Below, in pieces: positions 21,462 through 59,518 of a DNA stretch of 64,000 nucleotides. Origin of the DNA: Gemmatimonadaceae bacterium (GTDB taxonomy: Bacteria > Gemmatimonadota > Gemmatimonadetes > Gemmatimonadales > Gemmatimonadaceae); NCBI GenBank assembly GCA_020851035.1, contig JADZDM010000023.1, positions 124,001-188,000 of the forward strand, read 5' to 3'. Positions within the stretch are counted from its first letter, which is position 1; each line of letters starts with the position of its first letter. The position numbers and the translations under genes were made by a program. The notes beneath the pieces were generated by a model. The model did not search any database, was not told where the DNA came from, and saw nothing but the letters and a program-made list of their open reading frames with translations.

Positions 21462-22348
21462 CGACTCCAACACCGGCGACCGCGCATCCGTGGCGCGGGA
21501 CGCTGCTGGTGCTGCTCAGCGCGGCCTGCTTCGGCACGACGCTGATCTTCTCCCAGCGCGCGATCGACGGCGGCGCCAGCCTCTCGACGCTGCTGACGTA
21601 TCGCTACCTGCTGGGCACGATCCTGCTCGGGATCATCGCGGGCGGACCGGCGCCGGTGCTGGCCGTCGGCGCGCGGAAGTGGCAGTTGCTGTTGGTGGGG
21701 GGTGCGGCGCAGACCGCGATCGCCGGCCTGTCGGTGGCCGCACTGCAGGTGATGCCCGCCGCGGCAGTGGCGTTCCTGTTCTACACCTATCCCTCGTGGG
21801 TGACGCTGCTGGCGGTGCTCCGCCGGACCGAGACGGTGGGCCCGATGAACGTGCTGGCGCTGGTGCTGTCCCTGGCCGGCATCGTGACCATCGTGGGCAA
21901 CCCGTTCGCCGCGCAGCTCGCGCCGCGCGGCATCGCCCTCGCCCTGACGGCCGCGGTGGTGTACGCGCTGCTGATCCCGTGGCTGGGCCGGATCCAGTCG
22001 GGGTTGAAGCCGGCGGCGGCCATGACGTGGATGGTGCTGGGTGCGGGCGTGCTCTTCCTGGTCGGCGCGCTCGTGACCGGGGCGCCGCTCTATCCGGCGA
22101 GCCGGTCGCTGCTGATCAACGGTGCCGCCCTCGCGATCATCCCGACCGCGATCGCGTTCATCGCCTTCCTGCGCGGGCTGACGGAACTCGGGCCGGTGCG
22201 CACGTCCATCGTCAGCACGGTGGAGCCGTTCTGGACGGCGCTGCTGGCCGGCGTCGTGCTGGGGCAGGCGGTTGGCGTGCGCATCTGGCTCGGCGGTGCG
22301 CTGATCGCGGCGGCGATGGTGGTCCTGCAGCGAAAGCCTGCAACCTGA
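21458..22348 (+). CDS. EamA/DMT-family transporter
   Basis: This 296-aa protein contains about ten membrane helices arranged as two EamA repeats (LLVLLSAACFGTTLIFSQRA opens the first; ALTAAVVYALLIPWLG the second). Members of the drug/metabolite superfamily export amino acids, sugars or drugs; the substrate cannot be read from sequence. The GTG start overlaps the mgtE stop by four bases. An A-family inverted-repeat element begins 23 bp after the stop. Confidence 0.88.
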   Translation: MTTPTPATAHPWRGTLLVLLSAACFGTTLIFSQRAIDGGASLSTLLTYRYLLGTILLGIIAGGPAPVLAVGARKWQLLLVGGAAQTAIAGLSVAALQVMPAAAVAFLFYTYPSWVTLLAVLRRTETVGPMNVLALVLSLAGIVTIVGNPFAAQLAPRGIALALTAAVVYALLIPWLGRIQSGLKPAAAMTWMVLGAGVLFLVGALVTGAPLYPASRSLLINGAALAIIPTAIAFIAFLRGLTELGPVRTSIVSTVEPFWTALLAGVVLGQAVGVRIWLGGALIAAAMVVLQRKPAT

Positions 22349-22371: not shown

Positions 22372-22593
22372 ATCGTCAACAAGGTTCACGCGGAAAACGC
22401 GGAAAACGCGGAAAGGTGCCTCTACCGCGCTGCCACCCTGGAGACGGCTCGACCCGAAGAAGATGCTGTAGGAACTGCGCGTTCGCGCACGCAGTTCCTA
22501 CAGCATTCCTTCAAGGTGCATTCGGCCGGACGTGGCCTTGGGGTAGGGCCTTTCCGCGTTTTCCGCGTCTTCCGCGTGAACCCTGTTGACGAT
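22372..22593. repeat. Long nested inverted-repeat element, A-type copy
   Basis: The 45-nt outer arms at 22372-22416 and 22549-22593 are inverted copies matching at 43 of 45 positions. Each arm contains tandem CGCGGAAAA-like units next to GTTCACG. A perfect 17-bp hairpin (22463-22479 with 22490-22506) occupies the centre and contains GGAACTGC/GCAGTTCC. No reading frame explains it. It fills the gap between the EamA and SURF1 genes. Confidence 0.9.
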
Positions 22594-22621: not shown

Positions 22622-23374
22622 TCAGGTGTCGTCGACGCGCGGGAGGTGGCGGCGGCGGTCGTTGTACGCGAAGATGCCGGCGCCGAGCAGCGCGATGGTG
22701 GCGAAGCTGAACCACTGCACGGCGTAGCTCTTGTGGGCGCCCTCGCTGGGTGGCGGCGGGACGAGGCGCGGGGGGATGCCGGCCCTGGGTGCGGTGTCGC
22801 CCAGTTGCACGAGCAGGAGGGGCTTCACGGGGTACGGCATGCCCTTCTGCACTTCGGCGAAATCGAGCGTGCGCATGATCTTCGGGCTCGTGATCCCTGC
22901 CGCACCGGAGTCGGGGGTCGAGGCCGGGAGGGCGAAGGCCAGCACCTGCGCCGTGTCGGGCTCGCGCCACGCCGCGCGGTCGACATCCTTGCCATTGGGT
23001 GAGTAGACCCAGCCGCGGTTGACGAGGTACGCCGTGTCGCGTCCGGCGACGCGCAATGGCGTGAGCAGGTTCACGCCCGGTGAGCCGCCGCGGATGCGCT
23101 GCGTGATGAGCACCTCGTTGGCGTAGTCGAAGACACCGGTGACGGTGACGCGACGGTAGCGCATGGCGGCGCTGTCGGCGGGCAGCGACTCGACCGGGAC
23201 GGGGGGTGCCGTGAAGTGGGACGCGACCTCGGCGTTCAGCGCGCGTCGCCATGCGAGCCGGTCGAGCTGCCAGAACCCGAGGCGGATGCAGCCGGCGGCG
23301 ATGGCGACGGCGAGCACGATGAAGACGAAGACGCGCGGGCGGGTGCCGGGCGCCGGACTGCGGTCGTCGCGCAC
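22622..23374 (-). CDS. SURF1 family cytochrome oxidase assembly protein
   Basis: This 250-aa protein has the SURF1 pattern: an N-terminal membrane helix, LGFWQLDRLAWRRAL (residues ~33-47), RYRRVTVTGVFDY (~72-84), VNRGWVYSP (~120) and a second C-terminal helix opening with SYAVQWFSFATIALL. SURF1 proteins help insert heme a into aa3-type oxidases. No oxidase structural genes are in the window. The start is GTG and shares one base with the preceding stop (TAGTG). Confidence 0.92.
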   Translation of the reverse strand: MRDDRSPAPGTRPRVFVFIVLAVAIAAGCIRLGFWQLDRLAWRRALNAEVASHFTAPPVPVESLPADSAAMRYRRVTVTGVFDYANEVLITQRIRGGSPGVNLLTPLRVAGRDTAYLVNRGWVYSPNGKDVDRAAWREPDTAQVLAFALPASTPDSGAAGITSPKIMRTLDFAEVQKGMPYPVKPLLLVQLGDTAPRAGIPPRLVPPPPSEGAHKSYAVQWFSFATIALLGAGIFAYNDRRRHLPRVDDT

Positions 23375-54971: not shown

Positions 54972-55301
54972 GCGGGATGGGTGATTGGCTGACTGACGAG
55001 ATTGGTGTGGCTTCATGCTGACGCCATGCTGTGCTCGATGCAAGCACACTCGACCGTCGGGTTGCAGAGTTCGGTTGTCGCGAGAGCTGCTCCCGGAAAC
55101 TGTTGCAGTCACTCGCAGTTCCGTTCCGCGTTTTCGGCGTGAACCCTGTGACCATGCCCGAGCGACACGGGGGCTGGCCACCTGCGACACGGAGGCAGCG
55201 GGTGCGCGACGACAGCGTCGCGACAGGGGCGCGGTCACTGTCGTCTTGCTTGACCTTCGGCGTTTATTCGGTATCGTCAACAGTCCCACGACGAGCCGAC
55301 G
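54972..55301. other. Intergenic region carrying a degenerate half of the A-type repeat
   Basis: No gene is visible. At 55115-55156 the sequence runs GCAGTTCC, TTCCGCGTTTTC, GGCGTGAACCCTGTGACC: the right half of the A-type element with changes. GGAAACTG just upstream is a relic of the central hairpin. The left half is missing. The promoter of the ImuA-like gene should lie in the remaining part. Confidence 0.6.
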
Positions 55302-59303: not shown

Positions 59304-59414
59304 ATGACGAGAGCCGCAGTGATGCCAGCGCCACACGCACCGATCGAGGTGCGCGAGTATCCGGCGCCGGTGCTCGGCCGGAACGAAGCCGTGCTGCGCA
59401 CGCTGTTGTGGGAG
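59304..59414 (+). pseudogene. Zinc-dependent alcohol dehydrogenase remnant (N-terminal 37 codons)
   Basis: The reading MTRAAVMPAPHAPIEVREYP continuing APVLGRNEAVLRTLLWE is the start of a medium-chain zinc-type dehydrogenase. The expected Cys-Gly-Thr-Asp catalytic segment should follow, but the frame runs straight into a half copy of the A-type repeat and stops at 59504. The rest of the gene is gone. Confidence 0.65.
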
Positions 59415-59518
59415 CGCAGTTCCTTAAGCATTTCTTCACTGCGGGCTTCGCAGGAGATAGTGCCGCTGTTGCACTTTTCCGCGTTCTCCGCGCTTTCCGC
59501 GTGAACCTTGTTGACGAT
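59413..59518. repeat. Right half of an A-type inverted-repeat element
   Basis: GCGCAGTTCCTTAAGCATT at 59413 matches the right side of the A-type central hairpin, and 59474-59518 matches the A-type right arm at 40 of 45 positions. The left half is absent, and the junction falls exactly where the alcohol dehydrogenase homology ends. Confidence 0.8.

Follow-up and report, generated by a model that had tools for sequence, protein, structure and literature searches.

A gene-less nested hairpin in a Gemmatimonadaceae genome whose tandem-unit arms also flank genes of the predicted nuclease family GxxExxY

The DNA analysed here is a 64-kb window of the assembly G000 (34 contigs, 4.97 Mb), located at G000:C23:124001-188000. 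Between the stops of two convergent genes in this window, EamA (22348, forward strand) and SURF1 (22622, reverse strand), lies a nested inverted repeat of 222 bp, here called A-type. An inverted-repeat search placed it at 22372-22593, with arms of 45 nt that are 96% complementary (43/45), and thus recomputed the same coordinates and identity as the initial annotation, which had also called the element intergenic, as it is. Each arm contains three 9-nt units of the ACGCGGAAA type, inverted as a set in the right arm, a number far above chance. Exact ACGCGGAARACGCGGAA is confined to the two arms within the window, and at up to three mismatches it had nine matches there versus 0.6 ± 0.8 in shuffled sequence, so the tandem units described earlier for the arms hold up. 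Furthermore, the inner pair (22463-22479 and 22490-22506) is 17 nt long and 100% complementary, in line with the perfect 17-bp hairpin claimed for it. The core reads TGTAGGAACTGCG...CGCAGTTCCTACA and resembles a GTAG-tagged palindrome, with its GTAG paired with CTAC inside a symmetric stem. The whole 222-nt element is predicted to fold into one hairpin (-149.3 kcal/mol versus -80 ± 5 in shuffles, z -13.8). An Rfam scan of the window returned two tRNAs only, with no family above its gathering score at the element. The features are listed in Table 1.

Table 1 Features of the A-type element, its flanking genes and its decayed relatives (window coordinates)
Feature	Position	Strand	Basis or remark
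EamA transporter gene, flanking	21470..22348	+	context only
Left arm: ATCGTCAACAAGGTTC plus three 9-nt units ACGCGGAAA	22372..22416	+	inverted-repeat and pattern search
Tandem 9-nt units of left arm	22388..22414	+	inverted-repeat and pattern search
Middle layer, left side	22417..22462	+	folding, copy alignment; copy-specific, partly self-complementary with 22507-22548
Core hairpin GCTGTAGGAACTGCG..loop..CGCAGTTCCTACAGC	22463..22506	.	kept also in copies with unrelated arms
Middle layer, right side	22507..22548	+	folding, copy alignment
Right arm, inverted copy of left arm (43/45)	22549..22593	-	inverted-repeat search
Tandem 9-nt units of right arm	22551..22577	-	inverted-repeat and pattern search
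SURF1 gene, flanking; stop at 22622	22622..23374	-	context only
Strongly decayed copy: half core and short arm	55110..55160 (limits approximate)	-	
Decayed A-type copy: one arm (94% over 48 bp) and half core	59408..59518 (start approximate)	-	

Eleven full-length dispersed copies (209-228 bp, the window copy included) were found in G000. The others are 71-79% identical to the window element with both ends aligned, and many partial copies accompany them, either truncated or consisting of arm pairs with other interiors. The arm pattern TCAACANNGTTCACGCGGAA (up to three mismatches) had 58 matches in the assembly, mostly as inverted pairs, versus none for the reversed control. The initial annotation had proposed a genome-wide copy count and would have been refuted by a single occurrence, shared by related genomes within a conserved gene, which is not what the many dispersed copies show. 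In an alignment of the 11 copies, conservation was seen in both arms and in the core but not in the middle layer. The middle layer was rejected as a generally conserved paired region because its pairing is clear in only about 3 of the 11 copies (permutation 104/10000). According to the same alignment, the gene-less copies carry a core hairpin of their own, not gene remnants. Nests of inner and outer arm pairs with a spacing of about 79 bp occur on C1, C12 and C14. These compound nests (L035, C1:200971-201355; L031, C12:161613-161980; L033, C14:29333-29790) have outer arms about 79 bp out and a full element inside, and they include a case in which an arm and its flank are duplicated in tandem.

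In two arm pairs on C21, the arms stand about 590 bp apart and enclose an ORF in place of the core. The pair at C21:439208-439797 has A-type arms, its left end being 93% identical over 46 bp and its right end 91% identical to the window element, and the pair at C21:446669-447266 has related GGGGCGGAG arms. Both ORFs match PF13366 (PDDEXK_3; 128 and 109 bits, cut-off 22) and TIGR04256 (GxxExxY; 128 and 111 bits, cut-off 35), with E values of 1e-31 to 1e-37, and the gene-bearing copies thus encode members of the GxxExxY family. G000 has four GxxExxY genes in total, all with inverted tandem-unit arms nearby; the gene on C2 has inverted CGCAAGG-like units on both sides, and the gene on C34 has a CACGGAG-type hairpin immediately upstream.

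The A-type element is lineage-specific, because its DNA, compared with 60 relatives, matched only members of the genus apart from one weak match. The core GGAACTGC N4-20 GCAGTTCC had 38 matches in G000, 15 and 5 in two congeners, and 0-4 in other genomes of the phylum. It also occurs with unrelated arms. Being restricted to the genus, it was rejected as a phylum-wide marker of GxxExxY. The EamA-SURF1 spacer of G001, of the same genus, is only about 37 bp long and lacks the element, which bears on the earlier proposal to look for an unoccupied site in relatives. The homologous spacer of G002 (G002:C180:2900-3450, L074) holds about 550 bp of several other tandem-unit hairpins, which suggests that this spacer was repeatedly occupied. 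In two Sphingomonas genomes that are 91% identical, most hairpin sites are common to both, and two checked sites are occupied in one genome only. No precise empty site was obtained from G001, G002 or the two Sphingomonas genomes, where spacers were diverged or re-occupied by other hairpins. Likewise, no target-site duplication was seen beside the G000 copies (the unoccupied spacers in relatives being too diverged to define a junction), and the insertion sites have no recognisable common target beyond the element ends. The initial annotation had offered three roles for the element, namely a mobile non-autonomous element, a nucleoid-protein or recombination site, and a structured transcript. The first is the best supported, given the dispersal, the absence from G001 and the ends shared with nuclease-gene copies; a target-site duplication was not seen.

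We then considered GxxExxY genes beyond the source genome, using 80 loci from a one-genome-per-species collection, 77 of them testable. By record title they came from Pseudomonadota, Verrucomicrobiota, Desulfobacterota, Acidobacteriota, Bacteroidota, Planctomycetota, Chloroflexota, Cyanobacteriota and others, and each was scored by the best inverted repeat between the 350-bp flanks on either side of the domain. A score of at least 40 was reached by 52 of the 77 loci, versus 0 of 406 controls of the same geometry shifted by 1.3-1.9 kb; of 143 control genes scored with the regions that flank them, again none reached it. The 25 loci from sphingomonads mostly represent a single orthologous site and cannot count as independent; when they were set aside, 31 of 52 loci scored at least 40 and 38 of 52 at least 33. 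Among Gemmatimonadota loci, 11 of 20 scored at least 40 and 13 of 20 at least 33. The association of GxxExxY with arms is therefore strong and general across phyla, yet not universal, and the arms are not obligatory, because 13 of the 77 loci scored below 30 and 7 of the 20 Gemmatimonadota loci have no arms. Where arms are present, they are nearly always built of tandem units TCACGCnnAGnCGCnnAGnCGCnnAG or the CACnnAG variant, and compact arm-ORF-arm units measure about 440-600 bp. GxxExxY was found in 131 of 395 sampled genomes of the phylum, several of which have multiple genes. It was also present in eight plasmid records, with arms at 4 of 7 loci, and one of these records is annotated fabD - GxxExxY protein - fabG (L246). 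The window element was absent from the eight plasmid records with GxxExxY, and phage records gave no GxxExxY match.

The unit sequence is specific to each genome, being common to the GxxExxY flanks and the gene-less hairpins there. For example, TCACGCGGAGNCGCGGAG (up to one mismatch) had 2-30 matches per genome in 12 genomes with CGCGGAG-type arms, versus 0-1 for controls. These matches largely form inverted pairs, whose partners in many cases lie about 70-250 bp from each other and in some cases about 422-424 bp. In the sample examined, the 422-424-bp pairs of G399, G400, G401 and G402 and the long CGCAACG pairs of G412 and G413 contain GxxExxY, and the short arm pairs are gene-less hairpins. 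A spacing of 424 bp was nevertheless rejected as a sure sign of GxxExxY, since the L206 and L207 pairs of G401 are gene-less compound hairpin clusters. With no mismatch allowed, the rare unit TCACGCAACGNCGCAACG occurs 9, 6 and 9 times in the three genomes with CGCAACG GxxExxY flanks, and eight other genomes have none. In one of the three (L108), CGCAACG stands in both GxxExxY flanks in the same orientation.

The position of the copies relative to genes bears on a reading in which the hairpins are bidirectional terminators or mRNA 3'-end stabilisers under selection and GxxExxY is bracketed for the control of its expression. A heuristic gene call placed 6 of 16 G000 copies between convergent genes, the other 10 between codirectional genes and none between divergent genes, a distribution that, together with the very stable folds, would suit such a function. 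REPs, however, show the same placement downstream of genes (Di Nocera et al. 2013, PMC3733652). A terminator function also leaves the shared long ends, the dispersal and the absence in relatives unexplained, and it gives no account of why GxxExxY in particular carries arms in many phyla, so we regard it as improbable.

The two arms of an element evolve together. In sphingomonads, most GxxExxY genes occupy a single site, between fabD and fabG within a fatty-acid synthesis cluster (L100-L168), with arms that vary by species (CGCGGAG, CGCAGAG, CGCGAAG, CGCAAAG and so on). Across 17 sphingomonads, the agreement of left and right arms at this site was 0.93 within a locus versus 0.82 between loci (0/5000 permutations). 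For 18 elements of G000 it was 0.86 within versus 0.79 between (0/5000 permutations). This excess of within-element agreement shows joint arm evolution, with which conversion, hairpin-templated repair and replacement from other copies would all be compatible. Nests in Sphingomonas have CGCGGAG arms enclosed by CGCGAAG arms. GxxExxY is a fixed resident in sphingomonads, and it is likewise fixed at C2/L227. A homing-like element, in which GxxExxY would cut element-free sites, repair would copy in the arm-gene-arm unit and gene-less hairpins would be derivatives, fits less well. The PD-(D/E)XK fold, the compact units of arm, ORF and arm and the multiple GxxExxY genes of several genomes are what homing would lead one to expect. 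One fixed location throughout sphingomonads, insertion sites without a recognisable common target outside the element ends, and gene-less copies with a core of their own instead of gene remnants make it highly improbable.

Another alternative is a REP/RAYT origin. Here the genome's Y1 (HUH) tyrosine transposases would move the hairpins, and GxxExxY would be a frequent passenger between the ends. The GTAG within the core hairpin, as in GTAG-tagged REPs, and the known occurrence of RAYT-like genes with long terminal inverted repeats, many with the GGGGWSAS motif, which Di Nocera et al. (2013) termed TIRtrons (PMC3733652), are consistent with this origin, as are the three Y1_Tnp genes of G000 (C25:163197-163523, C21:174827-175159 and C2:173384-173707; L087-L089). 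However, these genes have different tandem arms or repeats of their own, one of which, GGGGACAG, fits the TIRtron consensus GGGGWSAS. Their arms and repeats, e.g., GTTCAAGGGGACGGAGATCTTGAAC and GGACTCTGTCCCCTTTCTGTGCCC, are TIRtron-like and separate from the A-type hairpins. Beside the three genes there is no core hairpin and no intact A-type arm pair, and RAYT was rejected as the owner of the A-type arms on account of the other arms in its flanks. Furthermore, Y1_Tnp was not found in the congeners G001 and G002 (about 90% complete), in which core hairpins are present, and passenger status would leave unexplained why the same protein family stands between such arms in many phyla. We consider this origin unlikely. 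Because the three Y1_Tnp genes have arms of their own, a TIRtron-like and a GxxExxY system appear to coexist in G000, and the A-type arms are not common to both.

The arrangement nevertheless resembles several known systems. Like REP/REPIN sequences with their RAYTs (REPtrons), it combines a resident nuclease gene that has a repeat on either side with dispersed gene-less palindromes, a genome-specific repeat that matches the flanks of the gene, and placement downstream of genes. Unlike them, its nuclease has a PD-(D/E)XK fold and not an HUH Y1 domain, and its elements are about 90-220 bp long, with arms of 25-45 nt made of tandem units of about 9 nt around a core, whereas REPs measure 20-40 bp. 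GTAG-tagged REPs are 20-40-bp palindromes with an unpaired GTAG at one end, linked to a RAYT gene that the same repeat flanks; the core GTAG of the window element is paired and no RAYT is linked to it, and we therefore did not file it as a REP. The earlier statement that tandem units set the element apart from REP/BIME sequences thus stands for the arms, but the separation is incomplete because the core looks like a GTAG-tagged palindrome. As in TIRtrons (TIRYTs), a gene is bracketed by long inverted repeats that are also dispersed as families, but the TIRYT genes encode HUH tyrosine transposases, in many cases with GGGGWSAS repeats, and the gene in the present system is GxxExxY, with a CGCnnAG/CACnnAG-like unit. 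With MITEs, the element shares that it is multi-copy, non-coding and dispersed and has terminal inverted repeats common to a gene-bearing copy. It differs in the tandem units within its ends and in the gene of the longer copy, which encodes GxxExxY, a predicted nuclease, and no known transposase. We did not file it fully as a MITE either, because no target-site duplication was found and a transposase is unproven.

The GxxExxY protein itself is well conserved. H18, G22, G24-E27, Y30, Q48, D67, E77, K79, G104, N108 and F109 are invariant in 60 aligned relatives, all of which match PF13366, and this set spans most of the GPGLLESxYE motif region together with the PD-(D/E)XK active site (D67, E77 and K79). 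An AlphaFold2 model (pLDDT 96) has a restriction-endonuclease-like fold. Its closest solved chain is SSO0001 (4ic1, Z 9.2), which we take to be a Cas4 protein, and further neighbours include other nucleases, among them archaeal Hjc Holliday-junction resolvases (Z 6-7). Such weak Z values (at most 9.2) support the fold and say nothing of function. A search of solved structures by sequence gave nothing significant, and PADLOC and PHROGs gave only weak similarity to Cas4/RT-associated PD-(D/E)XK proteins. That GxxExxY may cut cruciforms is an attractive idea in view of the Hjc neighbours. One could also imagine GxxExxY as a guard that resolves or trims the cruciforms of such repeats and is kept beside them without moving them, a role in keeping with the Hjc neighbours and with arms that form long cruciform-capable palindromes. 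The Hjc Z values, however, are in the range of a common arrangement, and a guard alone would leave the genome-specific unit match unaccounted for; we give it very little credence.

Taken together, the window element is probably a gene-less member of a dispersed hairpin family whose arms also flank GxxExxY, in a system that is like REP/RAYT and uses another nuclease. From the shared arms we infer that GxxExxY acts on the hairpins. It would recognise the arms, or the hairpin or cruciform that they form, and cut there; repair or copying of the hairpin could then carry new copies into spacers downstream of genes and, by the same process, keep the two arms alike. The GxxExxY gene would often be stationary, like RAYT genes, with hairpins spreading in trans, and gene-less copies such as the window element would be the passengers of an arrangement whose nuclease is unrelated to HUH tyrosine transposases. 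We conclude that the element likely behaves as a REPIN or MITE would within a system based on GxxExxY. More tentatively, and with some doubt, GxxExxY proteins could be pan-bacterial hairpin-mobilisation enzymes, namely PD-(D/E)XK nucleases of about 125 aa that recognise tandem-unit arms, copy hairpins via a cruciform or single-strand intermediate and homogenise the arms, by a mechanism other than HUH, DDE, serine or tyrosine transposition.

The recurrent pairing of GxxExxY with hairpins offers a first concrete, testable role for an orphan family, in moving or maintaining hairpins. It suggests a second, independent bacterial route to REP-like repeats, and it brings together the scattered TTCACGCGGAGACGCGGAG-type repeats of many bacterial genomes as one phenomenon. 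In the open-access literature searched, GxxExxY, PF13366 and TIGR04256 are mentioned only incidentally, with no function or flanking repeats given, and the unit sequences appear nowhere in a relevant context. Provisionally, the system seems to be new as far as that literature goes.

Several further observations concern the sphingomonad genomes. L206 and L207 (G401 C1:3476 kb and C1:2163 kb) are two 1.1-kb stretches, each made up of several nested tandem-unit hairpins, that are 96% identical in inverted orientation, apparently a recent duplication. L172, L190, L193 and other Sphingomonas hairpins have a REP-like CCGCGGCAGCGGCTCTC palindrome at their centre, comparable to the GTAG-like core in G000. 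Hairpin cores may be REPs captured inside arms, or the reverse. Inverted repeats of other, unrelated families, for example CGTCATCCCGGCGAACGCCGGGATCCATGG, adjoin the arm matches at L207 and L214.
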